Source: Planctomycetota bacterium
Lineage (GTDB): Bacteria; Planctomycetota; JAFGQW01
Assembly (NCBI GenBank): GCA_016935485.1
Contig: JAFGQW010000175.1
Coordinates: 1-38,258 of the forward strand
Length of the DNA: 38,258 bases
Direction of reading: 5' to 3'
Shown here: positions 14,975-38,237 of the stretch, piece after piece
Numbering within the stretch: the stretch's first letter is position 1
Layout: each line of letters starts with the position of its first letter
The notes under the pieces: model-generated
Told to the model about the DNA's origin: nothing
The model's database searches: none
Seen by the model: the letters and a program-made list of their open reading frames with translations, nothing else
Position numbers and translations under genes: made by a program

Positions 14975-17900
14975 CTACTTGGCGCCCATGGCCTCGTTCC
15001 AGTCGGGAAGCGGCTCCATCGGGCCGTCGAGCTCGATCAGGAAGTAGACGATCACCGGCCCCCGGCCGGGCTGGTCCTTGCCGAGGCGGGAACGCATGAA
15101 CCACTCCCGGCGGTCGGCTGTCTTCGGCGCCTCCCGCGGTCCGGGAAGCCGTCCCCCTTGGGTGGGCGTGCCGAAGGTGCGGAGGTAGAGCAGGAACGAC
15201 CAGGGGCCCTGCATCTTCACCGCAAGCGGCATCCCGTCATCCCGCTGGGTCTTGCGGTCCCGATCCAGGACCTCGACCTCCGTGAGCCCTTCCTCCGCGC
15301 CGCCCGGCGCCGGCATCCAGGATAGGTCCTCGATGCGCGGGGTCGTCTCGTAGATCCTCGCCTCCCTCGATCCCCGCCCGGCGGAAAAACGCACGCAGAA
15401 GGGACTCAAGGAGAACACGTCGCGCCCGCCGCCCGCGGCCTCCGCGCGGGTGGCGCTCCCCGGACCACCGGGAAGCACGATCTTGAACTTCACCTCACGG
15501 AAATCGCTCGTGTTCCCCGCGAGAAGCAGCCGCTGGAGCGCCTGGCACGCCTTGAGGAAGGCGATCCGGGGCTGGCCCGCGTCGAGACCGTACGGATCGT
15601 CCGCGTCCGGGAAGCACGCCAGGTATCGCTCGCACAGAGCGCGGATCCTCCCGCCCGGTCGCAGCAGCTCGCGCAGGTCGTCGGGACTGACCTGATCGAT
15701 GGGTCCCGCGGCAAGCCGCGCGGCGCTCACCGGCAGATCGCCATTGAACGGGAACTTTCCAGCAAGCTTCGGGCCCCACGGACCGGCGAGATCCGTCCAC
15801 TCCTGCTCGAACTGCTTCAGGGCGTCGGTGGCCAGAAGGCGCTTGCCGCTCTCGGCGAGATCGAGGAGCTTCTGGGCGAACAGATCCCCTTCGAGCTGGT
15901 TTTGCCGGCAAAACTCCTCGATCTTCCGGTCGAGCCACAGCCCGCGCTGGCGGCGTACCTCGGCCAGCGCCTTGGCCGGATCCTTGCCGTCGAGACGCGC
16001 GACCAGGGATTCCTGGAACTCGATCAGGATCTGCTCGAGAGTGCCGCCGGTGCCCTCGTTCCCGAGGTAGGGGTCCAGAACAGCGCACCAGGCGTGGCCG
16101 GTCGCGCTGCGGCGGCGCTCCAGCGGAAGGACGGTCACGTGCGTGGCGGCGTGCCCCGCGGACTTCCGCAGGTTCGCCGCGAGGTTCCTGACCGATGAGT
16201 GACCCAGCCCGGCGGCAAGATCGCGCTGGAAGCTCTCCCAGCGGTTGCTGTCGCCCGCCGCGGCGTCGTACGCATGCCCCCGGTTCGTCCAGAGCGGGGC
16301 GCTCAGGATCCGCTCCTTCCAGCTGTCGAGGTAGGCCTTTTCGTACCGGTTTCTGAGATCGAGCAACCGGTCCTTGTGGGGGAGATCGAACGTCTCGAAC
16401 AGACGGTAATCGGGCGCCGGGGTCTGGTTGCCCTTCGTTCCCGGCTCGCTGTCCGGGGCGGCGCGGCCCTCCACGAACGCAACCAGCGCGTTGATCTGCG
16501 TGTCGTGTCCCTGGTAGGCGCTCGCCAGGAAGGCCTCGTCGGCCGCCGCCGCGAACAGTCCGACGGGCCGTCCCTCGGGATCGCCGCGCTTGCGGAACCA
16601 GTCGAAGAACGCGAGCCGCTTCGGCTCAGCCTGCACCTCCGCCCACTCGAAGTACTCGTCCAGCACGCCGGCGAACAGCGTGGTCAAGGCACCGGCGGCC
16701 AGCGTATCGATCACGACGCGGAGGCGCTCCGCACCCCAGCGCGGCGCAGCGACCCCCAACGGCGCCGCCATGAAAGCGCGGTACGCCTCGTACTTGCCCG
16801 TGATGTCCGCCGCGAAGGAGGCGATCTCGAGGGACCGGCGCTCCGGCACCGACCACTTCTTCGTCAGCTCCTTCGGATCGCCAGCGACGATGTCGTTGAG
16901 GAGAGCGAGTCGCGCGAAGACTCCTGCCGCCTCCTGGGTGATACCGGCGGCCGCTTCCGCCGCGCTGGCCCCCGAGGAACCGGCGCGTCGAACCAGGTGG
17001 TTGGCGCCGTCGAACCGGGAAAGCACCGTGTTCCGGAAGGACTCCTCGAGGCGCTGCACACTGCGCGCGCTTTCGCTCCGCAGCGAATCCCCCAGCCGTT
17101 TCGCGCCGGAATCGCTGCAACGGTCGAGCACGGCGTTCCCGGCCAGCTCGGAGTAGGAATCCACGAGGTCGGCCTTGAGACGATCGAGCCGACTCTCGAG
17201 CGGCCCGTCATCACTTGCCGCACGGCACGCCTGCTCGAGCTCCTTCCAAACACGCGCCACCTCGGCGAACTTCGCGCGCCATCGATCGGCGATCTCCTGG
17301 TAGCTCGTCCGGGTCAACTCGCTCACCGGCAGCGGCGCCTCATCATCCACCGCACGCGACGTCACCTTCTGAAGCTCCCCGTAGCTCTCCTGGAAGGCCG
17401 CGGCCGCCTTGAGGCAGCGGCGCCACGAAGCGAGCGCGTCACCGACGTCGGCGCCGTCGGCGCCGTCGAGTGTCTTGACATCGACGCGCCCGGCCAGAAA
17501 CTGCCGGAGCGGCTGGCTCGCCCGCTCCAGCCGGGTCCAGAACTCGTCCTTGCCTCCGGGACCGGAAGCGAGGAGCAACGGACCGATCTGGCCGCCGAAG
17601 CGGACGAAACGGGCGTACTCGAACTGCAGTCTGTCGTTGTAGTCCGGCGTCGCGGGCTTGGCCGTGTCCACGTCACCCACGGCCCGGACGAGTGCTGCGA
17701 ATCGCTCGCCCGCCGCCGTTGTGTCCGGCGGCTCCGCAGCGGCCGCCGCCGCCACGAGCTCGCGAAACGTAGTGCGGCGTTGCTCGAAATCCGACCAGGT
17801 GTGGATCTCGCGGTGGGGTGCGCCGGCCGACGCACTTCCTTCGACGAAGGTCAGCGCCTTCTTGTAGAACGGCCCGAGATGCTTGTCCCACAGCCGATGC

Positions 17901-19474
17901 TGGTAGGCCGCCTTGAGGTGCGTGATCAGCTTGCAGTCCCCCGCCGGATGCGGGAAGAACACCTCGAACAGGGCCGCCGGGGCCGAACCCTGCGCGCCTT
18001 CCTTCTCCAATCGGTCGATCTCGTCGCCGAGCTCCGTGCAGAGCTGGAACGGGCGGTCCGCGTTGTACACGCCGTCCCTGATCTGCTCGACGAGCCGCGC
18101 AGGCCGGCTGAGCGTGCCGCGCACCGAGGGGATGCGGAGGATCAGGATCGCGATCCCGAGCAGCAGCACCGCCGCCCCGCCCCACAGCGCTGCCCCGCGG
18201 ATGAGCGCGTTCACCAGCCGCGACCGGTCCGAGCGCAGCAGCAGCCCCTTCTCCGGAAAGACCTTGCGGATGTAGAACTCGCGCACGAAGAACGGAGTCG
18301 ACCGCGCCTCGACCGATCGGAGATCCAGCGCCGCGGGCCGGTCCTCGCCGATGCCGCCCAGGATGCTCCGGATCGCGTGGGGAATGGCGCGGCCCTCCTG
18401 GAGGCTGCTCGTGAAGAAGAACCCGCGGAAGAACCCGGCCTGGCCATAGGGGCCCTGCATGAAGATCCTGTCCAGGTACGACTGGAGGGGCTGCTTGAGG
18501 GCGGTGAACTCGTCGGGCAACGGATAGAACTGGTCGATCGCCTCGGTCGTCGTCTCGTCGCCGAGGAACTTGAGGCGCCAGCGCCGGAGCGCCTCGACCA
18601 CCTGGTCGAAGGCCCGGGCAAACCCCTCGGGGCTGAAGGGCTGATCGAAGCGGCCCGGATTGGCCCAGCCGAGGAGCTGCTTGCGCTCGAGGACCGGCAA
18701 TCGCTTGAAGAACGGCTCGAATCCGAGCACGAGATCGGTCTTGAGGACGACCAGGAAGACCGGGAAATGCACCTTCAGCGTCGTCTGCAGCTCCTTCAGC
18801 CGCCGGGCGATCGCCTCGGCCTTGCGCTGGATCGTCTCCCCGTCGTCCTCGAGGAGCGAGGTGCACGGGATGCCGAGAATCACGCCGTTGATGGGACAGT
18901 TGGGACGACACCGCACGAGGAAACGGAGCACCTCGGCCCATTGCTCGCGATCGATGATCTCGTCGTCGTGGAGCGTCAGACGCCCCGCCGTGTCGAGGAT
19001 CACGGCCTCGCTGGTGAACCAGAAATCGCAGTCGCGGGTGCCCCCGGCACCGGAGATGCCCTGGGTGCCGAGTGGCAGATCGACGCCCGAGGTCTTGATC
19101 GTGAAGGTCTTTCCCGACTGCGGTTCGCCGAGGTAGAAGTACCAGGGGAGCGCGTAGATATCGACGTGGTTGGCCCTGAGCTCCTCGAGCGCGCGCGCGA
19201 AGCGCTCGCCGATCTCGGCGCGGGCGCCCTTGACGTCGTCGATCAGTCCGGAGGCAAATGCGGCCTTGCGCTGTCGCACCCGGTGGCCGAGGAACCGCTG
19301 GAAGCCAAGGAGCCCGAGTGTCACCAGGCCGCCGATACCCAGCGCGACCAGTACCGCAGCGAGACCGGCGCACAGGAACACAGCGGCGGCCACGATCGTC
19401 ACGCCCCCTCCCGCGACCGCGAGCCGCATCCGGGGCGCGAGCTCTCGGAACCAGGTTGCCCACGAGCGGATCAT
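14975..19474 (-). CDS. tssM: TssM (IcmF/ImpL) T6SS inner-membrane complex protein
   Basis: The product is 1499 aa, at the long end for the family. Two N-terminal membrane spans (about 21-58) precede a cytoplasmic NTPase-like domain with an intact Walker A, GEPQSGKT (116-123). A third span lies near 427-451 (GAAVLLLGIAILILRI). The remaining thousand residues are periplasmic and end in the IcmF C-terminal region (VKMQGPWSFLLYLRTF). TssM joins TssL in the inner membrane to the outer-membrane TssJ lipoprotein and forms the trans-envelope channel. ATG at 19474 is fixed by a strong GGGAGGGGG ribosome site and by the ATGA overlap with the tssL stop; an upstream in-frame start at 19492 lies inside tssL. 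Confidence 0.97.
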   Translation of the reverse strand: MIRSWATWFRELAPRMRLAVAGGGVTIVAAAVFLCAGLAAVLVALGIGGLVTLGLLGFQRFLGHRVRQRKAAFASGLIDDVKGARAEIGERFARALEELRANHVDIYALPWYFYLGEPQSGKTFTIKTSGVDLPLGTQGISGAGGTRDCDFWFTSEAVILDTAGRLTLHDDEIIDREQWAEVLRFLVRCRPNCPINGVILGIPCTSLLEDDGETIQRKAEAIARRLKELQTTLKVHFPVFLVVLKTDLVLGFEPFFKRLPVLERKQLLGWANPGRFDQPFSPEGFARAFDQVVEALRRWRLKFLGDETTTEAIDQFYPLPDEFTALKQPLQSYLDRIFMQGPYGQAGFFRGFFFTSSLQEGRAIPHAIRSILGGIGEDRPAALDLRSVEARSTPFFVREFYIRKVFPEKGLLLRSDRSRLVNALIRGAALWGGAAVLLLGIAILILRIPSVRGTLSRPARLVEQIRDGVYNADRPFQLCTELGDEIDRLEKEGAQGSAPAALFEVFFPHPAGDCKLITHLKAAYQHRLWDKHLGPFYKKALTFVEGSASAGAPHREIHTWSDFEQRRTTFRELVAAAAAAEPPDTTAAGERFAALVRAVGDVDTAKPATPDYNDRLQFEYARFVRFGGQIGPLLLASGPGGKDEFWTRLERASQPLRQFLAGRVDVKTLDGADGADVGDALASWRRCLKAAAAFQESYGELQKVTSRAVDDEAPLPVSELTRTSYQEIADRWRAKFAEVARVWKELEQACRAASDDGPLESRLDRLKADLVDSYSELAGNAVLDRCSDSGAKRLGDSLRSESARSVQRLEESFRNTVLSRFDGANHLVRRAGSSGASAAEAAAGITQEAAGVFARLALLNDIVAGDPKELTKKWSVPERRSLEIASFAADITGKYEAYRAFMAAPLGVAAPRWGAERLRVVIDTLAAGALTTLFAGVLDEYFEWAEVQAEPKRLAFFDWFRKRGDPEGRPVGLFAAAADEAFLASAYQGHDTQINALVAFVEGRAAPDSEPGTKGNQTPAPDYRLFETFDLPHKDRLLDLRNRYEKAYLDSWKERILSAPLWTNRGHAYDAAAGDSNRWESFQRDLAAGLGHSSVRNLAANLRKSAGHAATHVTVLPLERRRSATGHAWCAVLDPYLGNEGTGGTLEQILIEFQESLVARLDGKDPAKALAEVRRQRGLWLDRKIEEFCRQNQLEGDLFAQKLLDLAESGKRLLATDALKQFEQEWTDLAGPWGPKLAGKFPFNGDLPVSAARLAAGPIDQVSPDDLRELLRPGGRIRALCERYLACFPDADDPYGLDAGQPRIAFLKACQALQRLLLAGNTSDFREVKFKIVLPGGPGSATRAEAAGGGRDVFSLSPFCVRFSAGRGSREARIYETTPRIEDLSWMPAPGGAEEGLTEVEVLDRDRKTQRDDGMPLAVKMQGPWSFLLYLRTFGTPTQGGRLPGPREAPKTADRREWFMRSRLGKDQPGRGPVIVYFLIELDGPMEPLPDWNEAMGAK

Positions 19475-20163
19475 GTTCCCCCTCCCTGCCATGGCGCGCC
19501 GCTCGTCAGGCTATTCACCGTCTCCCCGATGGTAGCCTTCTGCGTGCGATACACGACGCGGCCCAGGATCAGGAAGAAGAGCAGGATCCCGGCCAGGAGG
19601 ATCGCGTAGCGTCCGAACCGCGCCACCGGAGGGATCGTGCAGTCCCGCCGGTCGGTGTGCTCGTAGGCCTGGGGCGTGACCTTCTCGCCGGCATCGACCA
19701 GCTTGCCCGGCAATCCCCGGTAGAGCTTGCGCTTCTCGTCCATGCGCTTGTCCGCTTGCCGGGCCAGCCGGCCCTGGAAGCCGAGCGCCAGCGCCGTGAA
19801 GAAGATCTCCCGCTCCTCGAGCCGGTCGGCCGCAAGCCGCTGCAGTTCGTCGTAGAAGAAGTCCCCGCCCTCGTTGCTCTGGTAGTACCGGTTCTCGAGA
19901 AGGCAGCTTGTGCGGTAATCGAGGGCGTGCTCCCACTCGGATCCGGCCACCAGACCATCGGCCACCGCAACCAGCACCTTGCGCATTCTCCGGTAGCGCT
20001 CGGCAACCGCCGGATCCTCCTCGGCGTTCTTGTCCATGCGATCGACGATCATCTCCAGGTCGTGTGCCACGCCGGTGACCTGGAGGTCCGCCCGGGCCGC
20101 GACCTTGCGGCGAAAGACCACGAGGTAGAGAAACAGCTCGGATACGAGCTCCGTGAGCGTCAT
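19471..20163 (-). CDS. tssL: TssL (DotU/ImpK) T6SS inner-membrane protein
   Basis: The product is 230 aa. The helical cytoplasmic DotU domain (residues 1-180) shows SELFLYLVVFRRK at the N-terminus and the conserved DYRTSCLLENRYYQS and FFYDELQRL segments. One membrane span (about 184-206, YAILLAGILLFFLILGRVV) sits near the C-terminus, as in the family, followed by only about 24 residues. There is no OmpA/peptidoglycan-binding extension. I chose ATG at 20163 with AGGAACC just upstream; a longer frame to 20856 overlaps tssK and is spurious. Thr2 and Thr4 lie in the cytoplasmic tail, the region where Agrobacterium TssL is phosphorylated (Thr14), but no equivalent site is proven here. Confidence 0.96.
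   Translation of the reverse strand: MTLTELVSELFLYLVVFRRKVAARADLQVTGVAHDLEMIVDRMDKNAEEDPAVAERYRRMRKVLVAVADGLVAGSEWEHALDYRTSCLLENRYYQSNEGGDFFYDELQRLAADRLEEREIFFTALALGFQGRLARQADKRMDEKRKLYRGLPGKLVDAGEKVTPQAYEHTDRRDCTIPPVARFGRYAILLAGILLFFLILGRVVYRTQKATIGETVNSLTSGAPWQGGGT
19478..19486 (-). promoter_or_regulatory. Ribosome binding site deciding the tssM start
   Basis: On the minus strand GGGAGGGGG lies 3 nt ahead of ATG 19474, with its GGAGG core 6 nt away. It is inside the end of tssL and selects the internal ATG over the start at 19492. Confidence 0.8.
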
Positions 20164-20224
20164 GGTTCCTGCCACTCGTGTACGCTGTAGGGGCGGAGCG
20201 GTACGAGGACCGCCCCCGGTCGTT

Positions 20225-21628
20225 TCATTCGATCTCGAACTGACCCTTCTCCGCCCGTCCCTCCACCACATAGAGCACGAAGTGGAGCGACTGCCCGGAC
20301 CCGTTGAACACCGCCAGCTCCTCGGTGCCGACAGACAGCTCCTCGTCTCCACCGGTTCGCGCCAGCCGGAAGTAGACCCGGCGGGGCCGTTCGGGAAGTG
20401 CCGTCGGCGTGCGCTCTTCGAGGCGCCGCCCGATGCCCGGCACGACGTGCTTGGCCAGGTCCTCGATCGTCTGCTTCGACCCGATGGAGACCTGCCGGGC
20501 CATGATGCGCGCGACCTCTTGCGGTTCCAGCTCAGAGTCAATGGCGATGTAGAAGCTGTTGCGCGGGTCCAGCCAGTCGGGTCGAAGGGCGACGACCTCA
20601 AACCGCCCCCAGGGTTCGAACGGACGGTGGGGCGCCCGGACAATGTACATCCGGGCCAGCAGGTCATCCAGGATCTCGACCAGCTTCTCGAAGGCAGCGC
20701 CGGGCGCGCGGTGGTCATACGCCGGCAGTGCCGGGGTGCGCCGCTCCGCGGTGAAGATCGCGAGCTGTCCGGCAAGGCCACAGAGCTCGCAAAACACCGC
20801 GACCGGATGCAGCCGCGGGATCTGGAGCAGCGCCTCGTAGTGTGCGAGAAAGCCATTCAGCACGTGCAGCTTCAGCATCATCTCCGGACTGCCCCCCGCC
20901 TCGACCGCAAAGTCGATCCCCTGGGCGAGGACCGTGTCCGCGAGCGCGTTGGCGCGGGCAGTCGCCCGGGAGAGCACCCCGTGGGCGACCTCCCGAAGCC
21001 GGGGAGCGCCTTCGAGCTCAAGGGTGGGCGGCACAAATGCGCGCTCGAGGCGGGGCAGGTACTGTCCCTCCCCTTCGCGCACGATCCGCAGCAAGGGCAG
21101 CGTCGCGCTGTACTCCACGGCCTCGTCGCTCGGCAGATGAAGGCGGGCGTTCAGCCGCCGCACCATCACCGGCTCGAGGTTCCCGCCCGTGTTCTCGTCG
21201 CCGACCTCGATCTCGTCGAGCCGGTAGCGGCGGGGCAGGCCGTCAGCGGTGCCGTCCTCCGCCACCAGGTTGGGCCCGCGGTCCCGCCCGAGCGGCACGC
21301 CGACGCGGATCTCGAGCGGTTGCCCCGCCGCCACCGCCATGGCCTCCTTGATATCGAGGACCGGAAGGTCCGCGTTGTCCGGCACGCGAACCAGCGTGCC
21401 GTCGGGAAGACGAGCCTCGAGGAAGCGGATCGCGACGGTGAAGTTCTCGAGCGCGTCCTCGTCGACCTCGAGGCGGCGGATGCCCCACGCGTACGGCTGG
21501 AAGCTGGCCACCGCGCCGCTCAAGGCTCCGAACAGATGGCGCTGCCAGATCTGGAAATGCTGCGGTCTGAGCAGCATCCCCTCATTCCAGTGCAGCTCGG
21601 CAAACTGGTTGCGGGGACTCGAGCTCAT
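20225..21628 (-). CDS. tssK: TssK (ImpJ/VasE) baseplate protein
   Basis: The product is 467 aa, the usual family length. The N-terminal signature LHWNEGMLLRPQHFQIWQR is diagnostic, and the C-terminal half carries the typical FYIAIDSELEPQEVARI segment near the receptor-binding head. TssK trimers link the baseplate to the TssL/TssM cytoplasmic domains. ATG at 21628 follows a GAGAAGG ribosome site. It starts 10 nt after the TssJ-like gene and lies 61 nt before tssL. Confidence 0.97.
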   Translation of the reverse strand: MSSSPRNQFAELHWNEGMLLRPQHFQIWQRHLFGALSGAVASFQPYAWGIRRLEVDEDALENFTVAIRFLEARLPDGTLVRVPDNADLPVLDIKEAMAVAAGQPLEIRVGVPLGRDRGPNLVAEDGTADGLPRRYRLDEIEVGDENTGGNLEPVMVRRLNARLHLPSDEAVEYSATLPLLRIVREGEGQYLPRLERAFVPPTLELEGAPRLREVAHGVLSRATARANALADTVLAQGIDFAVEAGGSPEMMLKLHVLNGFLAHYEALLQIPRLHPVAVFCELCGLAGQLAIFTAERRTPALPAYDHRAPGAAFEKLVEILDDLLARMYIVRAPHRPFEPWGRFEVVALRPDWLDPRNSFYIAIDSELEPQEVARIMARQVSIGSKQTIEDLAKHVVPGIGRRLEERTPTALPERPRRVYFRLARTGGDEELSVGTEELAVFNGSGQSLHFVLYVVEGRAEKGQFEIE

Positions 21629-21638
21629 GGTTGCCTTC

Positions 21639-22115
21639 TCACCTCGGCGTCCCGAAGCCGGTCGGGTGGACGGGGACCTCGAGGACGCCGTGGGTGCTCA
21701 GCCACGAGGAAAGGAAGCGATCCGGTTCGACGACCAGCCGGTCCGCTCCCTCCCGGGTCTTCCCGGCGAAGCGGCCCCAGAGGAACACCTTGACCACAGG
21801 ACCGGGAAGTCGATCCGCATGGATCGGCTCCGCCCCTGCGGCCGAAACCACGGTGCTGTGCAGCCGCTGCGCGACCAGATCTCTCTCGAAGTCCCCGCCG
21901 CGATCGAACAGCTCCTTCGCCTCGAGCTTGAGGCAGCGCTCCACGTCTTGCGCGGCGGCAAAATAGACGTAGACCTGGATGGAAGGCTGGCTCTTCAACT
22001 CCGCCCCGTCCGGAACGAACCGGACCTGGTAGGTGGAGATGCCGCAGCCGAAGCCAGCCGGCGCCAGCGCCACGCACAGGACCAGCAGTCGCAGTCGGCC
22101 CGCCGGATCGGCCAT
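21639..22115 (-). CDS. TssJ-like small envelope protein
   Basis: The product is 158 aa with an N-terminal signal (RLRLLVLCVALAPAGFGC). The cysteine at 24 is preceded by GFG, a degenerate lipobox, so lipidation is uncertain. The body is predicted beta-rich and contains QPSIQVYVYF followed by an acidic helix, a layout reminiscent of TssJ, in which the first strand and a loop contact TssM. Length (150-180 aa for TssJ) and position immediately upstream of tssK support TssJ. Sequence identity to canonical TssJ is low to my eye, hence no symbol. A GAGG ribosome site lies 7 nt before ATG 22115. Confidence 0.65.
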   Translation of the reverse strand: MADPAGRLRLLVLCVALAPAGFGCGISTYQVRFVPDGAELKSQPSIQVYVYFAAAQDVERCLKLEAKELFDRGGDFERDLVAQRLHSTVVSAAGAEPIHADRLPGPVVKVFLWGRFAGKTREGADRLVVEPDRFLSSWLSTHGVLEVPVHPTGFGTPR

Positions 22116-22161
22116 GGCAGTGCCTCACTCTCTCTCCGACCTCGCCCATCTCGCCGCAGCC

Positions 22162-22197
22162 TCGGACAGGTCGACCGGATCGGACAGGTCGACCGGC
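22162..22197. repeat. Two tandem 18-bp direct repeats
   Basis: TCGGACAGGTCGACCGGA occurs twice back to back (22162-22179 and 22180-22197), differing only at the last base. Each copy contains GGTCGACC, a perfect palindrome, so each could bind a dimeric protein. It lies in the 117-bp gap between the first gene of the minus-strand arm and the TssJ-like gene. Confidence 0.85.
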
Positions 22198-22232
22198 GCT
22201 CCCGGAACCGCCGCCCCGCCGTGGTCCACGGT

Positions 22233-22979
22233 TCAGGACATGGCTTGCCGCGCGATCCGGCCGGCGATCTCGAAAATCTGACTCTTGGCCTCCGGCGGCG
22301 TCAAGTCGCGTGCCATCTCCCGATAGCTTTTCCAGTATGTCCCGAACCGATTGCCGAGGAAAGCCACCCTCGCGGCCTGCTCGATCGCCTGGGGGCTCAG
22401 ACGTTCCCACCACTCGGTCCACCAGCGATCCGGCGCGAGCTCCCAGGCCCTGAGGCTCGCGGCCATCCACCGATTGATATCCCCGAGGTAGTCGTTGATC
22501 TTGTCCACGGCGTCCTCACCGCCGTCCTGAAGGAGCTGCAGCACGTAGCCCCGCAGGTTGGCGAAATGTCCGGGCAGCTTCACTTTCTGGCCCTCCCGCA
22601 TGAACTCGGTGGCGATGGCGACGACCGCGCCCTCGATGCTCATGAACTGGCGAAACAGGCGCTGGACCAAGGCAACGAGCTCCTCGTCCGCCACCCGCTG
22701 CTGCGCGTCCGACCTCGCCGCCCCATCCGCCGCGGCCTCGAGGAAGACCTCGAGCAACTGTTCGCGCAACCTCCCGCCGAACGCACGCCGGAGCGCGCCT
22801 TGCTCGGCCGGGCTGAGTTCCTCGACCGCCTTGCGGGCGGCTTGGGCCCCGCGTCCCGGGCCGTCTTGCGCGACCCGTAGCATCAGCGCCGCAAGGTCAG
22901 AGATCTTGCTCTGGATCTCCTCCTCCGGCTGCATACTCCGGTTGCTCTCACGACGCCCGCCATCAGACTGAGCAGCCAA
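22233..22979 (-). CDS. Helical protein of unknown function opening the minus-strand T6SS arm
   Basis: The product is about 248 aa, cytoplasmic by appearance (no signal, no membrane span), all-helical and charged. The C-terminal third (LSPQAIEQAARVAF then YWKSYREMARDL then IFEIAGRIARQAM) weakly recalls the helical C-terminal domain of T6SS FHA proteins (TagH/ImpI), which has a similar L-x-P-x-x-(L/I)-E ... W-x-x-(Y/F) ... F-x-x-x-F order; no FHA domain is present. This is a pattern impression, not a match. The start is uncertain: TTG at 22979 has AAGGGAGA 4-5 nt upstream and is preferred; TTG at 22994 overlaps the stop of a short upstream frame; ATG at 22934 lacks spacing. It lies 117 nt ahead of the TssJ-like gene and is probably co-transcribed with the T6SS arm. 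Confidence 0.75.
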   Translation of the reverse strand: MAAQSDGGRRESNRSMQPEEEIQSKISDLAALMLRVAQDGPGRGAQAARKAVEELSPAEQGALRRAFGGRLREQLLEVFLEAAADGAARSDAQQRVADEELVALVQRLFRQFMSIEGAVVAIATEFMREGQKVKLPGHFANLRGYVLQLLQDGGEDAVDKINDYLGDINRWMAASLRAWELAPDRWWTEWWERLSPQAIEQAARVAFLGNRFGTYWKSYREMARDLTPPEAKSQIFEIAGRIARQAMS

Positions 22980-22990
22980 CGTGTCTCCCT

Positions 22991-23120
22991 TCAAGCTCGC
23001 ACCAGCACGTCCCAGAACAAGGAGCGTCCGCGGCCTGTCAGACTCTCACTCGGATAGAACACCAGGTCGACGGCCGGAACCCGGGCCTCCCCGCCTTTCA
23101 CCACGTCGAGCGAATCGCAC
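22991..23120 (-). pseudogene. Possible truncated gene remnant upstream of the minus-strand T6SS arm
   Basis: The last 41 codons of a minus-strand frame read like protein (DSLDVVKGG ... VPAVDLVFYPSESL ... LFWDVLVRA) with mild third-position G/C bias. Upstream of about 23120 the frame loses coding character. Its stop overlaps a TTG (TTGA) at 22994, the arrangement used by the kinase gene. It may be the 3' end of a deleted or frameshifted first gene of the arm. Function is unknown. Confidence 0.3.
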
Positions 23121-23159
23121 AACGGATGCTGGTGTGGCGCTGCCCTGGAGATGCGACAT

Positions 23160-23175
23160 TGGCACCATCGTAGCG
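23160..23175 (+). promoter_or_regulatory. Sigma-54-like -24/-12 element (weak)
   Basis: TGGCAC at 23160-23165 and GC at 23173-23174 have exactly the GG-N10-GC spacing of sigma-54 promoters; the -12 half is TAGCG rather than TTGCA. It points right, toward the sigma-factor operon, but lies about 980 bp from the first plus-strand gene. A chance match is quite possible. Confidence 0.25.
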
Positions 23176-24156
23176 ACCCTGATCCGCTACCGCAAGCCTG
23201 TTTGAAAGCCCAACGGAGCTGCCCTTCCGGCTCGCCGGCCCAAGTCTCTCGATGCCGCATTCACGATGCAGGATCGCCCAGCCCTCCCTGTAGAGCCGCT
23301 GGACGAATGGCCATGCGAAGCTCCGCGTCGGCGGTGCCGCAAGTCCCGGAACCTCCAGAACCAGTGGCGTGACACGATGCTATCCCACAAGGGTTTGCAG
23401 TGCCTACTCGATTCCAAGCTCTGGCCGGTCCGCGGCGGACAGGAGCCCGGCCGGCTGGCCCAAAGGCCACCACAACGACTGCCCCGCACGACCGCGCGTT
23501 CTTCGGAATCCAGAGCGCGCGCCCGCGGCGGCCACTCCGTGCAGCGTTTAACTCACTGTTCCGCTTTGACTTGTGGATTCTCCCCAGCCGAGTTGCGAAC
23601 CAACGGGGGTGCGGCTCTCCATGCGCGCAAGCCCTCCTCGGCCGGTCCTGGCGGGCTCGATCACCTTCTCCGACTCGACCCCGTGATTGCCCGCTCCCGC
23701 GCGAGCCCGCCAGAGACAGAGCGGTCCCGAATGCCGCAACGCTCGACCGATTCCTCTGCCGCGCCGCTGGGCACCGAGTATTGCGGATTGCCCGGCGCGG
23801 GAAGAGTACCTAACTCGAAAGTTTGCTTTCATTTACGCCCCGGCCCAAACGAACGGCCAGCCACCGTTGAACTGGGGCGCCTCTGCCGGGAAGTCCTCGG
23901 CCAGGGTGGTCGTGGCGAATCTCCAGAGGCACGGTCCCCGAGCCGTGCCCCGTTTGACGGCCAGGATTCCGTTCGCCGAAATCCCCCGCCTGGCGGTTGT
24001 GGTCGAGCTGCCTCGGCGATACAATCCTGGCTCCTTTCGCCGGAGCGGACCGCTCGGAGCAGAGGCGCCGGACCGGCTGGGGCCCATCTCTCGGGTTCAG
24101 AACCGGGTAGTGATCGCGGAGCAAGGGGTGCCCGCAACGCCGCGCGCGAGTACATC

Positions 24157-24564
24157 ATGGAACCCTCGACGCCAGATGCACAGCAGCCAAGGAACGGGGC
24201 CAAAGAGCCGGCTCGTCCCCTTCGGCAGACAGTGCCCTTCGATCGGAGAACCCTCGAGGAGGTGCTCGGGCGCGCTCTGACCCTTTCCGGCCCCGCTCAG
24301 GAGGTTCTGGCCGCTGATGTCGAGGCGCTGCGAGAAGTTGCCCGCCGACACCGGGAGGAGTCCTTCTCCCTCGAGCCGGTAGCCGTGGACCTGGTGGAAT
24401 CTCTCCTGGTGGCGTATTTCGACGGGCAGCGCCATGCCGAAGGATCTGCCCCGAGCCCCTGGCGGCCCATGTCGGAGCAGATCGCCCGCACCCTCTTCGA
24501 AGATAGCGCCTCCTCGCAGAGACTCTCGGCGCTCTGGACCCGTCTCCAGGAGGCAACGCAATGA
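24157..24564 (+). CDS. Small helical protein coupled to the sigma factor, unknown function
   Basis: The product is 135 aa, with no signal or membrane span and no zinc anti-sigma motif (no H-x3-C-x2-C). The first 25 residues are polar and probably disordered; the remainder is amphipathic helix (RTLEEVLGRALTLSG ... PVAVDLVESLLVAYF ... SQRLSALWTRLQEA). Its stop overlaps the sigma-factor start by 4 nt (ATGA), a coupling often seen for regulators and their sigma factors, so a partner or anti-sigma role is plausible but unproven. ATG at 24157 has only a weak ribosome site; the frame is open further left but reads as non-coding there. Confidence 0.65.
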   Translation: MEPSTPDAQQPRNGAKEPARPLRQTVPFDRRTLEEVLGRALTLSGPAQEVLAADVEALREVARRHREESFSLEPVAVDLVESLLVAYFDGQRHAEGSAPSPWRPMSEQIARTLFEDSASSQRLSALWTRLQEATQ

Positions 24565-25313
24565 CCCTCCAGAGGCCCAACTGCCAGAGGGCCACCGCCA
24601 GCGTGGAGGAGGTGCTCCCCGGAGGTCCCGAGAAGCTCATCGAGGGCTGCCAGGGCCTGGTCCGGTCGCTGGCGTGGAAGGTCCACCGCAAGCTGCCCCC
24701 CAGCACGGACATCGAGGACCTCATCGCCTTCGGGCAGCTGGGGCTCGTGGCCGCTGCGCGCGCCTTCGACCCCTCCCTCGGCGGGAAGTTCATCACCTAC
24801 GCGTACTATCGCATTCGCGGAGCCATCTTCGACGGCCTGTCCAAGATGAGCTGGTTCAGCCGTTACGACTACCACAGCTCGCGTTACGAGCGCATGGCCA
24901 ACGAGGTGCTGCGTCTGGAGTGCGAGGACACCGACGCAGTGCCCGGGAGGAACCTCGAGGAAGACGTCGCCTGGTTCAAGGGCATCACCACCACGCTGTC
25001 GGTCGTCTACCTCGCCACATGCTTCGGAAGCGAAGCGGACGAAGAAATGGCTGGCTCTCTGGAGGATCGGTCGGTGCCCTCGCCAGCCGCCGTGACGATA
25101 GAGCGGGATCTCGGCGCCAAGCTCCACGACCTGATCGATGCCCTCCCGGCCGATGCGGGCAAGCTCATCCGCAGCGTGTACTTCGAGGGCCAGACGCTCC
25201 AGGAGGCGGGGAGGACCATCGGCGTCAGCAAGGCGTGGGCCAGCCGCCTGCACCGCAAGACCCTCCACCGCTTGGCCTTCTCGCTGCGGCAAATCGGCAT
25301 CGGAGCCGCCTGA
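24561..25313 (+). CDS. Sigma-70-family RNA polymerase sigma factor, FliA-like
   Basis: The product is 250 aa. Region 2 (about residues 23-100) carries DIEDLIAFGQLGLVAAARAF, then FITYAYYRIRGAIFDGL and W(F)SR, the core-binding and -10 recognition pattern of FliA/SigF-type group 3 factors. Region 4 (about 184-245) ends in the -35 helix-turn-helix TLQEAGRTIGVSKAWASRLH. Between them there is no recognisable region 3 helix-turn-helix; instead there is a 75-residue divergent linker. It is not an ECF factor, as the conserved domain 2 boundary and length are those of FliA. Lying first in the plus-strand arm 61 nt before tssA, it is a candidate dedicated regulator of this T6SS. Confidence 0.88.
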   Translation: MTLQRPNCQRATASVEEVLPGGPEKLIEGCQGLVRSLAWKVHRKLPPSTDIEDLIAFGQLGLVAAARAFDPSLGGKFITYAYYRIRGAIFDGLSKMSWFSRYDYHSSRYERMANEVLRLECEDTDAVPGRNLEEDVAWFKGITTTLSVVYLATCFGSEADEEMAGSLEDRSVPSPAAVTIERDLGAKLHDLIDALPADAGKLIRSVYFEGQTLQEAGRTIGVSKAWASRLHRKTLHRLAFSLRQIGIGAA

Positions 25314-25361
25314 GTCCATGTGTCTTTGAAATGCGGTGCGCGATGGCGGAGAGAAGTCGTT

Positions 25362-25374: not shown

Positions 25375-26529
25375 GTGGGGTCGTCTGAAGTCCTGGATTT
25401 CGAAGCGCTTCTGGCCCCGATCCCCGGCGAGTATCCCACGGGAATCGACCTCCGCCAAGACCCGGCGCCCACCTCGCCGTATCGCGACCTCAAGGCCGCG
25501 GTCGCGAGGGCGAGGACCGAGGCGCGCCGCAAGATCGCCGGTGAACCCGATGCCGCCCCGGACTGGAACGTCGTGGTGGAGGCGGCCAAGGCGATGCTCT
25601 CCGGCGCCTCGAAGGATCTCGTGGTGGCGACCTGGCTCGCGGAGGCCCTCCTCCACGAGCACGGCTTCGGGGGGCTTAGGGACGGCTTCCGGCTGGCCCG
25701 CGAGCTGGTCGAGCGGTTCTGGGAAGGGCTCCACCCCATGCCGGACGAGGAGGGCGCGGCTGGCCGCGTCTCCGAGCTGGCCGGCCTCAACGGCGCCGAC
25801 CGCGATGGGCTCCTCGTGGACTGCATCCACGACGTTCCGCTGACCGAGGGGTCCTCGGCCGGGCCCTTCGTTTGCTGGCAGTACAGGAAGGCGGAGTCCC
25901 TGGAGGCTATTGCCGACCCGGATCGGCGCCAGAGGCTGAGCGCGGAGCCGGATGCGGTGACCAGCGAGACGATCCGCCAGGCCGAGGCCGAGACCTCCGC
26001 CGCATTCAGCCGCCAGCTGCGGGAGGACTTGCAGAGCTGCCTCGATGAGTTCGGTCAACTCGACCAGCTCCTGGAACAGACGTGCGGCACTGGCCCCGAC
26101 GGCGAACCCATCGCTCCTCCTACCTCGAGGATCCGCGGCGCCCTGAAGGAGTGCCTGGACATTGTCGAGGCCTACGCAGGTGGGGCGCGCGAAGCGGAAG
26201 ATCGGGACGGAGACAAGCAGGGCGAGGCGGGCAAGAGAGCCCCGGTGGCGGAGGGGATGGCCACGGGGAAGACGCTCCCGACGGTCGGGGCTGGCGAGGT
26301 CAGAGACCGGGAGCACGCCTTCCAGCTCCTGCTGGGGATCGCCGAGTTCTTCCGGAGAACGGAGCCGCACAGCCCGATCTCCTATGTGCTGAGAAGGGCC
26401 GTGGAGTGGGGCCGGATGCCTTTGCCGAAACTCTTCTCGGAACTGATTGACGAGGAAGGGATGCGGTCGAGCGTGTTCAAACTGGTCGGCATTCCTCCCG
26501 AGGAGTCTCCGGTCCAGCCACAAGATTAG
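25375..26529 (+). CDS. tssA: TssA (ImpA) T6SS assembly cap/initiator protein
   Basis: The product is 384 aa from GTG 25375. The ImpA N-terminal domain is clear (LLAPIPGEYPTGIDLR, then SKDLVVATWLAEALL, GFGGLRDGF and FWEGLHPMPDE, about residues 8-130). The C-terminal region keeps the family's AEFFRRTEPHSPISYVLRRA and WGRMPLP motifs. TssA recruits the baseplate and caps the growing sheath tip. Between the two, about residues 190-310, lies a variable helical segment with a charged linker. It follows the sigma gene by 61 nt and is separated from tssB by 226 nt. Confidence 0.95.
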   Translation: MGSSEVLDFEALLAPIPGEYPTGIDLRQDPAPTSPYRDLKAAVARARTEARRKIAGEPDAAPDWNVVVEAAKAMLSGASKDLVVATWLAEALLHEHGFGGLRDGFRLARELVERFWEGLHPMPDEEGAAGRVSELAGLNGADRDGLLVDCIHDVPLTEGSSAGPFVCWQYRKAESLEAIADPDRRQRLSAEPDAVTSETIRQAEAETSAAFSRQLREDLQSCLDEFGQLDQLLEQTCGTGPDGEPIAPPTSRIRGALKECLDIVEAYAGGAREAEDRDGDKQGEAGKRAPVAEGMATGKTLPTVGAGEVRDREHAFQLLLGIAEFFRRTEPHSPISYVLRRAVEWGRMPLPKLFSELIDEEGMRSSVFKLVGIPPEESPVQPQD

Positions 26530-26601
26530 GTGATCCCGGAACCATGATATTCCGCGCGGCAAGAGCGCAGGACGAGCTTCGCGAATCTCGTAATGCACAC
26601 C

Positions 26602-26609
26602 TATACAAT
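26602..26609 (+). promoter_or_regulatory. Possible -10 element ahead of tssB
   Basis: TATACAAT lies in the 226-bp tssA-tssB gap, 147 nt before the tssB start, in an A/T-richer patch. The -35 region (TTCGCG near 26578) is poor for sigma-70. The size of the gap in an otherwise compact operon supports a separate promoter for the sheath genes. Confidence 0.25.
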
Positions 26610-26755
26610 GGCTTGCGTGTATCTCCCCAGTTGCACCGTCCCCTGGCATTGACGGCAGCGGCCGAGGTGAGGACACTGGATCACGTGTCGGGAAAGCGCT
26701 TTGGTGCGGTTTCATCGCGAAACAGGCCGTGGTTGTATCCGGGAGGTCCTTGAAC

Positions 26756-27277
26756 ATGGCTGAGTCGATTGGAAAGAAGCTCACTCGGGTGCGCAAGCCC
26801 CGGGTCCACATCACCTTCGATGTGGAAACAGAAGGTGGCACCGTGAAGAAAGAGCTGCCGTTCGTCGTGGGAGTGATGGGCGACTTTTCCGGCAATCCAA
26901 CCGAGCCGTTGAAGCCGCTCAAGGACCGCAGTTTCGTCCAGGTGGATCGGGACAACTTCGACGCGGTCCTGGCGCGCATGACGCCCGGACTCAACCTCAA
27001 GGTCGAAAACACGCTGGCCGGCGACGGCACCGAGATGGCCGTCCAGCTCCAGTTCAAGAAGATGGAGGACTTCGAGCCGGTCAATGTCGCCAAGCAGGTC
27101 CAACCACTCCAGAAGCTCCTGGAGGCCCGCGAAAGACTCAAGACGCTCCTCAACGACATGGACCGCGGCAAGTTCTCCGAGGAAGCCCTCGAGGAGATCC
27201 TCAAGAACACGGAGAACCTGCAGAAGGCCGCGAAGGAGCTCGGGATCGCCAGTGAGGAGAAGGGAGGCCAGGAATGA
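26756..27277 (+). CDS. tssB: TssB (ImpB/VipA) sheath small subunit
   Basis: The product is 173 aa, the normal length. It has the family pattern [28 protein letters not shown] and [12 protein letters not shown], and ends in the helical tail that interlocks with TssC. TssB and TssC heterodimers polymerise into the contractile sheath around the Hcp tube. ATG 26756 follows GGGAGG by 9 nt; an upstream ATG at 26729 precedes this ribosome site and is rejected. It overlaps tssC by 4 nt (ATGA), ensuring balanced synthesis. Confidence 0.97.
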
Positions 27278-28773
27278 GCCCGGAGCAGAAGCGGGAAGGT
27301 GAATCGCGGCCGTCGCCTGCCGAGGAAGTCAGCGTACTCGAGAAGGTGCTCGCGGTGACTCCCGCCGCGGAACGCGACCGCGTGAAGACCGGCCTAGAGG
27401 TCTTCATCGACAGTCTGGTCAAGGGCACCACGTCGTGGGACAAGAGCGTCACCCGCACTCTGGAGCGCGGCATCCAGGCAATCGACGCGAAGGTCTCCCA
27501 GCAGCTCGCCGCGATCATGCACGCGCCCCAGTTCCAGAAGCTCGAGGGGACCTGGCGGGGCTTCCAACACCTCGTTTTCAACAGCGAGACGAGTGCTCAG
27601 CTCAAGATCAAAGTCCTCAACATCCCCAAGACGGAGCTCTTCAAAGACCTCGACAAGGCGGTGGAGTTCGACCAAAGCCAGGCATTCAAGAAACTCTACG
27701 AAAACGAGTTCGGTATGCCGGGAGGCGAGCCCTACGGAGCCCTGATCGGGGACTACGAATTCACGAACCACCCCGAGGACCTCGCCATGCTCACGAAGAT
27801 GTCCGGGGTCGCGGCGGCGGCGTTCTGCCCGTTCATCACGGCCGCCTCGCCAGGCCTCTTCGGGTTCACCGACTTCACCGAACTCTCGCGGCCCAGGGAC
27901 CTCGAGAAGCTGTTCGACACGGTGGAGTACGCCGCCTGGGAGTCCTACCGCGACACCGAAGACTCCCGATTCGTCACCCTGGTGATGCCGCGGGTCCTCG
28001 CGCGCCTGCCCTACGGACAGGCGACCAAGCCGGCCGAGGGATTCAACTTCGAGGAGGTGGCCCTCGACACCAAGGGCAGGGCCAAGAAGGTTCCCCACGA
28101 CCAGTTCTGCTGGATGAACGCCTCGTACGTGATGGGCGCGAAGCTCACCGAGGCGTTCGCCGAGAACGGGTGGTGCACGGCAATCCGCGGGGTCGAAAAC
28201 GGCGGGAAGGTGGAGGGCCTGCCTGCTTATACCTTCACCAGCGATGACGGCGATGTCGCCCTCCAGTGCCCCACGGAGATTGGCATTACGGACCGACGCA
28301 GCGCGGAACTGGACAAGCTCGGCTTCCTGCCGCTGTGCCACTTCAAGAAAACCGACTACGCGGTCTTCTTCGGGGCCCAGACGACCCAGAAGGCCAAGGA
28401 CTACGGCCCACGCAACACCAACGCCACAGCCAACGCCGCCATCTGCGCCCGCCTGCCCTATATCATGGCCGCCTCGCGTATCGCGCACTACCTGAAGGTG
28501 ATCGGCCGCGACAAGATCGGCGCCTTCCTGGAGCGCAGCGAGTGCCAGGACTGGCTGACCAACTGGATCAAGGACTACATCTGCGCCGATCCCAAGCCGA
28601 GCGCGGACATGAAGGCCAAGTACCCGCTGGCCGAAGCCAGCATCACCGTGCAGGAGGTCCCTGGGAAGCCCGGCTGCTACGATGCGGTTGCGCACCTCCG
28701 ACCCTGGCTGCAGATGGAGGAGCTGACCACCTCCATCCGCCTGGTGGCCAGGATCCCGCAACTGGCGAAGTAG
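27274..28773 (+). CDS. tssC: TssC (ImpC/VipB) sheath large subunit
   Basis: The product is 499 aa. Hallmarks are [18 protein letters not shown] (about residues 88-105), [20 protein letters not shown] and [31 protein letters not shown], and the C-terminal [18 protein letters not shown] strand that augments the neighbouring protomer's handshake. It has the complete family layout and is the likely cognate partner of TssB, whose stop it overlaps. The paralogue downstream is more divergent at its C-terminus. Confidence 0.97.
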
Positions 28774-28835: not shown

Positions 28836-28893
28836 CCTTCTCCGCTGGAGGTTCCGGATCCTCGTGACTCGGATGCAGAAGCAGGAACCAGGG

Positions 28894-30447
28894 ATGAGCC
28901 AGGCGCCTTCGGAAGCGGCGTTTGCCCAGGAGGGTCCAGGCTCGAACCTCTGGGAGACGCTCCTCGGAGCCACCGGCACGACAACGGGCGTGACGGCGCG
29001 CAAAGACCGGACCCCCTGCCTGGTGGAGGCCTTCCTTGCCGAGCTCTCCCCAGCTCGGGCCCTGGTCCTCTGGGTCGGCCCGGCGGCCTTGCGGCGGTTC
29101 ACCACAAGGCGCGCTCTCGCCCAGCTCCTCGCCCGGGACATCGCTCGCATCGACGACGCGCTCTCGGCCCAAGTGAATGCGATCCTCCATCACCCGCGGT
29201 TCCAGCGACTCGAGGCGTCGTGGCGAGGGCTCCACTACCTGGTCGGGCAGCTCGAAGAGGATCAGGACGTCAAGGTCAAGGTGCTGAACGTGAGCTGGAA
29301 GGAGCTCGCGCGCGATGCCGAGCGGGCAGTCGAGTTCGACCAGAGCCAGCTTTTCCGCAAGGTGTACAGCGAGGAGTTCGGGATGCCGGGCGGAGAGCCT
29401 TACGGCGTCCTTCTCGGGGACTACGAGATTCGCCATACCCTGGGGCCCGACCATTCCACGGACGACATCGCTCTTCTCGGCTCGATCTCCCAGGTCGCGG
29501 CAGCGTCCTTCGCGCCGTTCATCGCCGCCGCCCATCCGGCGCTCTTCGGTCTCGAGAGCTTCACCCAGCTCGAAGGTCCACTCCACTTGCACCGCATCTT
29601 CGAGCAGCAAGACTATGCGCGGTGGCAGGGGCTCCGCGAGTCCGAGGACTCCCGCTTCGTGGGCTTGGTGCTGCCGAGGGTCGTCGTTCGCCTGCCCTAT
29701 GAGGACGACGGCTCCCGGGAAGACCGCTTCCGGTTCCGGGAGGACGTGGCGGGGCCCGATGCCGGCAAGTACCTCTGGGGCAACGCGGCCTACGCTTTCG
29801 GCGCGGTGCTGATCCGGGCCTTCCAGCAGAGCGGGTGGCTGGCGGAAATCCGTGGCGTGCAGCGCGACCAGGAGACCGGCGGCCTGGTCACCCGTCTAGC
29901 GGTCTCCTCCTGCGACACCGATCGCCCGGGCGTGGCACCGCGGAGTGCCACCGAGGTGACCATCGTCGAAGAGCAGGAGAAGGAGCTCAGCGACCTGGGT
30001 TTCATGTCGCTCTGTCCCTGCAAGTACTCCGCGTACTCCGCGTTCTACGCCAACCCGTCGATCCAGAAACCACGGGACTACACGGAACTGGCGGCGGCCA
30101 TGAACGCCCGGATCTCAGCGATGCTGCAGTATGTGCTGTGTGCGTCGCGCTTCGCCCACTACGTGAAGATCCTGATGCAGCACAGGGTCGGCAGTTTCGC
30201 CTCGGCCCAGGAGCTTCAGGACTACCTGACGCAATGGGTGTCTCGCTACGTGGCCAACGACGCCAGCGCCTCGCCGCATACGCGGGCGCGTTTCCCGCTC
30301 AGGGAGGCCGAGATTCGGGTCAGCGAGAGGCCGGACCGACCGGGGACCTTCCAGTGCGTGCTCCGGCTGCTCCCCCACTATCAGCTCGATGCGGTGACGG
30401 CCACGGTGGCCCTGAAGACCACGCTTGAGACCCAGCGAACACGGTGA
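28894..30447 (+). CDS. Second TssC-family protein (ImpD-like paralogue)
   Basis: The product is 517 aa and clearly homologous to Tss[40 protein letters not shown] and [31 protein letters not shown]. It differs in its first 80 residues and in the C-terminal strand ([19 protein letters not shown]), which is not the usual LRP(H/W)(F/L)Q-x-EELT. Two adjacent TssC-family genes occur in rhizobial imp loci (ImpC/ImpD; TssC41/TssC40 in Agrobacterium), where only one is the TssB-stabilised partner. It may be a minor sheath or sheath-cap subunit. Three starts are possible: GTG 28864, ATG 28873, ATG 28894; I prefer 28894 because AGGA lies 7 nt upstream. Confidence 0.9.
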
Positions 30448-30528
30448 GGGTTTCCCGGTCCTCCTGCGGGGTCAGCGACCAGACCAGGAGCGAGAGACAA
30501 GACACGTTGGAGGGTGAGGGCACGAGGA

Positions 30529-30550
30529 GGCGATCACGACGAAGATCGCC
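30529..30550 (+). repeat. Hairpin ahead of tagJ
   Basis: GGCGATC at 30529-30535 pairs with GATCGCC at 30544-30550 around an 8-nt loop, in the 134-bp gap after the second tssC gene and 20 nt ahead of the tagJ ribosome site. It could modulate tagJ translation or protect the upstream mRNA; there is no T-run. Confidence 0.55.
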
Positions 30551-30581
30551 CCCCGCAAGGACCCATGCACAGGAGCGGATC

Positions 30582-31388
30582 ATGTTGGCCAAAGACCATT
30601 TCCGCGCCGGACGGCTGACGGAGGCGATTGCCGCCGCCACCGACGAGGTCCGGGCACATCCCGGCGACGTCGCGAAGCGAGGGTTCCTTTGCGAGCTGCT
30701 GTGCTTCTTGGGCGACCTGGAGCGGGCCGACCGCCAGCTCGATGCCACGGCGAGTCAGCTCGAGCCCAGGCACACCATGGGCGTCTCACTCTTGAGACAC
30801 CTGCTCCGAGCCGAGCAGGCCCGCCGGCACTTCTTCGCCGACGGCCGGGTTCCAGAGTTCCTCGAGGCGCCGTCTGCAGACCTGCGGCTCCGCCTGGAGG
30901 CCTCGATCTTCCTGCGGGAGGGCAAGCCCGACGAGGCCGCCAGAATCCTCGAAAAAGCCGAGGCAGAGCGCCCGCCGATCGCCGGTACCTCCGACGGCAC
31001 CGCCTTCGATGATCTGCGGGACCTCGACGATCTCACCGCCACCTTCTTCGAGGTCCTCACCTCGAACGGCAAGTACTACTGGGTCCCCATGGAGCGTGTC
31101 GATTCGATCGAGTTCCACGCCCCGGAGTTCCCCCGTGACCTGCTGTGGCGGCGAGCCCACCTCGTGGTCCGGGGCGGCCCCGACGGGGAGGTCTACGTGG
31201 CCGCCCTCTACCACGGCTCGCACCTCCACGAGGACGAGCGCATCCGGCTCGGGAGAGCCACGGACTGGCCGGGCGGGGAAGCCGCCCCCGTGCGCGGTGT
31301 GGGCCAGCGCATCCTGCTCGTCGGAGACCAGGACGTGCCGATCCTGGAGATCAAGACGATCGAGATCCGGCGAGGAGATTCCGCGTAG
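30582..31388 (+). CDS. tagJ: TagJ (ImpE) sheath-associated accessory protein
   Basis: The product is 268 aa. The N-terminal half is a TPR-like helical domain (LTEAIAAATDEVRAHPGDV, about residues 10-30, and further pairs), and the C-terminal half holds the ImpE-type beta domain with YYWVPMERVDSIEFHAPEFP and LLWRRAHL, the family's diagnostic block. TagJ binds the TssB N-terminus and may tune ClpV-driven sheath recycling. I chose ATG 30582 because AGGAG stands 6 nt upstream; the frame is open further left from 30444 but reads as Arg-rich non-coding sequence. It lies 3 nt ahead of tssE. Confidence 0.93.
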   Translation: MLAKDHFRAGRLTEAIAAATDEVRAHPGDVAKRGFLCELLCFLGDLERADRQLDATASQLEPRHTMGVSLLRHLLRAEQARRHFFADGRVPEFLEAPSADLRLRLEASIFLREGKPDEAARILEKAEAERPPIAGTSDGTAFDDLRDLDDLTATFFEVLTSNGKYYWVPMERVDSIEFHAPEFPRDLLWRRAHLVVRGGPDGEVYVAALYHGSHLHEDERIRLGRATDWPGGEAAPVRGVGQRILLVGDQDVPILEIKTIEIRRGDSA

Positions 31389-37530: not shown

Positions 37531-37673
37531 CGGAGGATCGCATGCCACCGCGAATGCGGGGGGGTCCCGATTGTGGGAACACCCTGGAAACTGCGCAACT
37601 TCCTCCGGGCGGTCGCGAGAATAGGGACGTCGATCGACGCCACAGGTTGGCTGAGGATCGTGGAGACCGCTGA

Positions 37674-37720: not shown

Positions 37721-37754
37721 CGCGGGCCGTTACTTTCAGCAAGGGAGGTGTGTC

Positions 37755-38237
37755 ATGCCGGCGTACGCGAAGATCGGTGACATCAAGGGAGAATGCACAG
37801 ACAAGAACCACAAGGAATGGGTCATCCTCGAGTCGATGAGTTCGCCCATCCATCGGTCCATCCCGCAGGGAGCCAAGGACATGCAGCGAAGCCGGGGCGA
37901 GACGACCCTGGGGGACATCGTCCTGGTGCGGCAGCTGGACAAGTCATCCGTCAAGCTCCAGGAGGCGTGTGCCTCCGGGAAGTTCTTCCCGGAGGTCGAG
38001 ATGCACTTCTGCACCGAAGTCAAGGGGAAACGGGAGCCCTATCTGAAGTACAAGCTCAAGGACGTCATCGTCACCAGTTACAGTTTTCATGGCAACGCCA
38101 GCGGCAATCCCCTGCCCTCCGAGGAGGTGACGCTGGGTTTCTCGGAAGTCGAGTGGACCTACGTGGTCGTGGACCCGAACACCGGCGATCCCAAGGGGAA
38201 CGTGCCCGGCAAGTACTCTCCGGGAGCCGGAGCCTAG
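37755..38237 (+). CDS. hcp: Hcp (TssD) tail-tube protein
   Basis: The product is 160 aa, the usual length. It starts AYAKIGDIKGECTDKNHKEW and keeps the Hcp beta-barrel features HGNASGNPLPSEEVTLGF and VEWTYVVVD near the end. Hexameric rings stack into the tube inside the sheath and carry small effectors. GGGAGG stands upstream of the ATG. The gene is separated from clpV by 224 nt, giving room for its own promoter and leader; no vgrG is visible in the 21 nt that remain after it. The C-terminal tail (NVPGKYSPGAGA) is short and free of an effector extension. Confidence 0.97.
   Translation: MPAYAKIGDIKGECTDKNHKEWVILESMSSPIHRSIPQGAKDMQRSRGETTLGDIVLVRQLDKSSVKLQEACASGKFFPEVEMHFCTEVKGKREPYLKYKLKDVIVTSYSFHGNASGNPLPSEEVTLGFSEVEWTYVVVDPNTGDPKGNVPGKYSPGAGA

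Follow-up and report, generated by a model that had tools for sequence, protein, structure and literature searches.

A FliA-class sigma factor and a conserved small partner protein at the head of a Planctomycetota type VI secretion locus

The structural arm of a type VI secretion system (T6SS) cluster in a Planctomycetota genome opens with a gene for a 135-aa protein and, overlapping it, a gene for a sigma factor of the FliA class, and we consider it reasonably probable (about 0.6) that this dedicated sigma factor and its cognate regulator, probably an anti-sigma factor, control the secretion locus. The window, meaning the whole stretch of DNA analysed, is an entire contig of 38,258 bp from a 4.9-Mb, 90%-complete genome, and its T6SS cluster is divided between a right arm and a divergent left arm. 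Gene order in the right arm is 135-aa ORF, sigma, tssA, tssB, two copies of tssC, impE, tssE, tssF, tssG, tssH and hcp. A sequence-only reading of this DNA had described two overlapping ORFs heading that arm; both are present (24157-24564 and 24561-25313, with ATGA common to the two), and tssA, tssB and tssC lie directly downstream of the pair. The arrangement of sigma and partner goes beyond chance, since dozens of loci in other genomes carry the two genes in the same order. The features of the window are:

5879-10210, - strand: large ORF with a Ser/Thr kinase (Pkinase) domain, left arm
14975..22994, - strand: divergent arm overall
14975-19492, from 19471, and 20225-21628, - strand: tssM, tssL and tssK, respectively
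21639-22115 and 22233-22994, - strand: unknowns of the divergent arm, 158 aa and 253 aa
22995..24156, no strand: divergent intergenic region, 1.16 kb
24157..24564, + strand: small partner protein, 135 aa (homologous ORF 5' of sigma in relatives)
24561..24564, + strand: ATGA, overlap of partner stop and sigma start (translational coupling), also the commonest spacing among relatives
24561..25313, + strand: 250-aa sigma factor of the FliA class, in a separate subfamily linked to secretion (Pfam, NCBIfam, tree)
24636..24854, + strand: sigma region 2, residues 26-98 (Pfam Sigma70_r2)
24855..25133, + strand: region 3 (remodelled) plus linker, residues 99-191, predicted as two helices, with family-specific W...T..LA.VYLA (no Pfam r3 match)
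25227..25253, + strand: region 4.2 recognition helix SKAWASRLH, residues 223-231 (alignment against FliA)
25375..26529, + strand: tssA, GTG start with AGGAGG, ORF opening at 25336 (TIGR03363, 1.1e-74; start by inspection)
26756..27277, + strand: tssB (PF05591, 1.8e-58)
27274..28773, + strand: tssC paralog 1 (Pfam)
28864..30447, + strand: tssC paralog 2 (Pfam)
30444-31388, 31392-31856 and 31853-33679, + strand: impE, tssE and tssF (Pfam, NCBIfam)
33568-34740 and 34804-37530, + strand: tssG and tssH (Pfam, NCBIfam)
37755..38237, + strand: hcp (tssD)

For tssA, the GTG at 25375 has a better ribosome site than the opening of the ORF. The tandem tssC (sheath) paralogs differ from each other and both occur in many sigma-bearing Planctomycetota loci, which suggests a two-subunit sheath. 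The left arm also contains a weak TagF-like match, while its 158-aa and 253-aa proteins matched no Pfam or NCBIfam model; the former is a possible TssJ-like lipoprotein.

The sigma factor retains the regions expected of its class. Pfam matches to Sigma70_r2 (residues 26-98, 8.9e-10) and Sigma70_r4 (residues 192-238, 2.3e-7) exceeded the gathering scores of PF04542 and PF04545, and the best NCBIfam model was FliA_WhiG (TIGR02479, 1.8e-29), co-linear over residues 31-239, albeit at 103 bits and therefore under the 189.6-bit cut-off. Two other genes of the same genome, at C271 (259 bits) and C154 (221 bits), exceed that cut-off. In the structural comparison, the AlphaFold model (mean pLDDT 75) kept helical regions 2 and 4, and sigma-28 and WhiG structures led the Foldseek matches with low overall TM-scores (about 0.3), as is expected if the sigma domain orientations differ. 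The earlier description of the protein as FliA-like was thus borne out. Assignment to flagellar FliA itself was rejected, given the sub-cut-off score and a position outside the FliA clade. An extracytoplasmic function (ECF) sigma of the EcfK type was likewise rejected: FliA_WhiG was the best model, and only the broad sigma70-ECF superfamily model passed its own cut-off.

Two parts of the protein depart from FliA. The sequence-only reading had noted no visible region 3, and Pfam r3 was indeed unmatched; however, approximately 94 aa are still there between regions 2 and 4, their sequence is family-specific, and AlphaFold predicts two long helices (residues 101-124 and 132-155) at moderate confidence, so region 3 appears to be remodelled rather than deleted. 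The region 4.2 helix of sigma factors reads the -35 element. In this helix, T6SS-linked and T3SS-linked (type III secretion system) sigmas have near-fixed K, W and R where FliA has E, R and Q (SKAWASRLH in the window sigma versus the FliA-type SESRVSQLH), and the -35 sequence recognised by secretion-linked sigmas should therefore differ from that of FliA too. In the tree, the 65 secretion-linked rows stand apart from FliA on a branch with support of 100 and a length of 1.1. Support was 97 for the T6SS clade and 84 for the T3SS clade, with L081/L082 and L085/L089/L169 branching separately, although these are SH-aLRT values from a quick search and the branching order among secretion-linked sigmas is unsure.

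We assessed how the sigma factor is distributed relative to T6SS genes across 392 Planctomycetota genomes, the window's own included. Homologs of the window sigma were found in 13 genomes (E-values of 1.1e-34 or better), and family-profile scores were bimodal: 14 genomes scored 255-348 bits, a single genome scored 153 bits and the others scored no more than 138 bits. TssB was detected in 83 of the 392 genomes, among them all 14 sigma-bearing genomes (Fisher p = 1.4e-10). Most T6SS-bearing Planctomycetota (69 of the 83 TssB-positive genomes) lack this sigma, implying that the system can persist in its absence. A scan of GTDB contigs yielded 80 sigma loci ranked by similarity, and synteny was assessed at the 50 non-redundant Planctomycetota loci whose downstream flank was 2.5 kb or longer. 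The sigma adjoins T6SS genes in 48 of these 50 (tssA in 43, and TssK, TssH or TssM-like genes next to the two genes in five more: L035, L045, L062, L078 and L080). These counts are descriptive, given the ranking by similarity and the non-independence of related genomes. Together with the genome-level association, this linkage strongly supports dedication of the sigma to the T6SS lineage, as had been suggested from the window. No T6SS gene lay within reach of the sigma-partner pair in the fetched flanks of the other two loci (L044 and L049), where the pair stands alone at around 9400-10800.

The 135-aa protein, whose gene shares its last four bases with the start of the sigma gene, belongs to a family that accompanies the sigma closely. 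A homologous small ORF was found 5' of the sigma gene in 54 of the 56 loci with room for one (three of the 54 rest on blast matches), the exceptions being L086, in which the sigma is fragmented, and L069, in which the sigma has no recognisable partner. A lower estimate from blast counts, with the partner in only 5 of 13 loci, was rejected, as an ORF search gave a small ORF in 13/13. Stop-to-start spacing fell between -25 and +4 nt in 50 of the 54 T6SS-clade loci, a 4-nt overlap being commonest, and the proposal that the small protein is a coupled companion accordingly extends to a conserved one. The two genes were also kept together in L044 and L049 despite the lack of T6SS genes in the flanks. 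Divergence of sigma and partner was correlated when TssA and TssB were accounted for (partial r = 0.45), compared with 0.12 for the control pairing of partner with TssA, in which sigma and TssB were accounted for. Near-universal presence, coupling, correlated divergence and retention outside recognisable T6SS loci together make it likely that the sigma and its partner are a functional pair.

The identity of the partner was less readily assigned. Its C-terminal motif is IARTLFEDSASSQRLSALWTRL, in line with a family pattern of IA.TL.ED...S.RL..LW..L, and the structural model (mean pLDDT 69) is predicted to be all-alpha with a low-confidence N-terminus, which is probably disordered. None of 14 members matched Pfam, and a PDB fold search with the model returned no neighbour (best E of 2.2). 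FlgM (PF04316) was rejected for the T6SS partners (hhalign P of 0.17), while T3SS partners gave a P of 0.001 at 22% probability. RsiG was also rejected: the c-di-GMP motif described for it, E(X)3S(X)2R(X)3Q(X)3D (PMC8325347), was absent from all 69 partners. No known anti-sigma family was therefore matched in the Pfam, PDB, FlgM and RsiG comparisons, and the proposed role draws instead on the usual companions of FliA/WhiG-class sigmas, by analogy with which the partner is probably an anti-sigma factor.

Sigma homologs were also found in T3SS clusters of Myxococcota and of MAGs named Bdellovibrionales, Schekmanbacteria and Eisenbacteria, with at least one T3SS gene at 27 of these 31 loci and two or more at 25. 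In Myxococcus eversor (L103), a needle-like protein (weak match) and a TPR protein are followed by a small ORF and the sigma, and then by SctI, SctJ, a FliG-like protein, SctL, SctN and SctO. The small ORF in T3SS loci was homologous to the window partner by hhalign (P of 2.5e-8 for the Myxococcaceae type and 1.4e-9 for several others), though these values are somewhat generous, as the ORFs were chosen with the partner profile among a few upstream ORFs. For L084, L091 and L099-L101, the ORF 5' of the sigma was not demonstrably of the same family, and some T3SS-linked sister sigmas have either a different small ORF upstream or none that can be recognised. Across the Myxococcota loci L102-L116 (e.g., L103:8496-17112), the sister sigma and a small partner lie within T3SS clusters of predatory myxobacteria. 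In M. xanthus, a needleless T3SS* (mxan_2434-2464) and the Kil system kill and lyse prey (PMC12075869), a paper in which the sister sigma goes unmentioned; gene content suggests that the L103 locus is a T3SS* cluster. The Myxococcales T3SS has been proposed by Abby and Rocha to descend from a flagellum-injectisome intermediate (PMC3459982), an origin that a FliA-derived sigma in Myxococcota T3SS would fit.

Turning to promoters, the sequence-only reading had proposed a shared motif at 22980-24156, 26530-26755 and 37531-37754, but none was found in the window, and two-block expectation maximization (EM) 5' of partner and tssB in about 40 loci gave no shared motif either. Patterns returned by EM were rejected as promoters: they were interpreted as ribosome sites or as coding sequence of TssA, even where some likelihoods were above those of shuffles. 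FliA-type consensus sites occurred at chance level, neither a sigma-70 site nor an Rfam RNA family was found in the 22.8-27.0 kb interval, and the 1.16-kb divergent region showed no conserved DNA across the fetched loci. In loci L030-L034, which belong to a single genus, inspection by eye showed a conserved sigma-70-like box (TTGGAA-16-TATACT) ahead of the sigma operon, and this genus therefore gives no indication of autoregulation. A distinct block 5' of tssB in these loci, GGGCAAACTTGGCCAGTGACGATGCG, is invariant by eye in four related genomes and is a candidate tssB promoter; it occurs once per genome and so reveals no regulon. The overall proposal consequently stands for a FliA-class, T6SS-dedicated sigma that has a coupled companion and heads the structural arm, and falls short on a common promoter motif.

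We infer promoter control, partner binding, the sign of the partner's effect and the signal along the following lines. At a few T6SS-locus promoters, RNA polymerase would carry this sigma instead of the housekeeping one, and the sigma may also serve effector or hcp genes elsewhere. The partner would be co-produced with the sigma and bind it, most likely as an anti-sigma factor restraining it until a signal arrives, for example contact or assembly state.

FliA-class sigmas are classic drivers of late genes, and this one could ride in the T6SS cluster while mainly driving genes elsewhere (effectors, surface), leaving the tss genes to the housekeeping sigma, a reading that suits both the lack of a shared motif at tss promoters and the sigma-70-like box 5' of the operon in one genus. 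However, the sigma is held tightly beside tssA over deep divergence and co-occurs with TssB, and we regard this wider role as its main one as rather unlikely. The partner could alternatively be a positive co-factor: it would dock on the sigma, perhaps replacing the reduced region 3, and promoter opening or binding to polymerase would depend on it. Remodelling of region 3 throughout the family and near-absence of partner loss agree with this, and translational coupling would suit a holo-complex no less than an inhibitor; yet some T3SS sister sigmas are preceded by a different small ORF or by none that is recognisable, which argues that the partner is not universally needed, and FlgM and RsiG, the known companions of FliA/WhiG-class sigmas, are inhibitors. 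A co-factor role thus seems unlikely to us.

Control might instead come from the left-arm Ser/Thr kinase (5879-10210), which would phosphorylate the sigma as PknS does EcfK, the partner being a scaffold or minor player. A Pkinase-domain protein is encoded within the same cluster, and a T6SS-encoded sigma with a kinase has precedent (PMC6653060, PMC13147305). Against this, a similar kinase was found in few relatives' flanks only while the partner is nearly universal, and the sigma is FliA-class rather than ECF. Post-translational control is another known role of Ser/Thr kinases encoded in T6SS loci, and we consider kinase control of the sigma improbable. The same ORF could represent a second control layer, compare PknS.

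Most knowledge of T6SS regulation comes from Proteobacteria and concerns sigma-54 activators, H-NS, Fur and one ECF-kinase pair. The window sigma belongs to the class of FliA/sigma-28 and WhiG, is co-linear with them in regions 2 and 4 and has its nearest structures among them, but it differs in its sub-cut-off score, separate clade, remodelled region 3 and region 4.2 residues, and it links to T6SS whereas FliA links to flagella. Sigmas from T3SS clusters of Myxococcota and relatives (e.g., L087, L093-L095, L100-L104), clusters that resemble the needleless T3SS*, form the sister clade and share the SK[SA]WASRLH helix, with a homologous small ORF just 5' of the sigma in Myxococcaceae-type loci; in contrast, they are about 35% identical and associate with T3SS rather than T6SS, and their partner has a Gly-rich N-terminus and weak similarity. 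In its proposed role, that of a small, helical companion to a FliA-class sigma, the 135-aa protein resembles FlgM and RsiG in their pairs with FliA and WhiG, but it has neither FlgM profile similarity nor the RsiG c-di-GMP motif. Cross-talk between flagellar FliA and T6SS has been reported in the literature, and we found no FliA-class sigma dedicated to T6SS in open-licence literature. The earlier view that a built-in sigma is unusual holds for the FliA class but not for T6SS-encoded sigmas at large: Xanthomonas citri EcfK is an ECF sigma encoded inside a T6SS cluster, needed for T6SS expression and activated by the kinase PknS (PMC6653060), and in the parts of that report covered here no coupled small partner is described for it.

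More tentatively, a sigma of flagellar type and the small regulator dedicated to it may have become a portable control module for contact-dependent weapons, serving an early-branching Myxococcota T3SS and, in parallel, Planctomycetota T6SS. The sigma would recognise a -35 element of its own, and the regulator would belong to a novel family of anti-sigma factors signalling the state of the secretion machinery. If true, control by a FliA-class sigma encoded within the locus, together with its conserved partner, would amount to a novel principle of regulation spanning two unrelated injection machines, and the T3SS sharing this control would be of the kind used by predatory myxobacteria on prey. 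It would bear on the carry-over of flagellar control when secretion systems arose from flagella, and it would supply named genes for testing the control of Planctomycetota and Myxococcota weapons. Towards its left end, the contig encodes a B12-binding radical SAM protein (1002-2717, - strand) and a HEAT-repeat protein (3152-5281, + strand).
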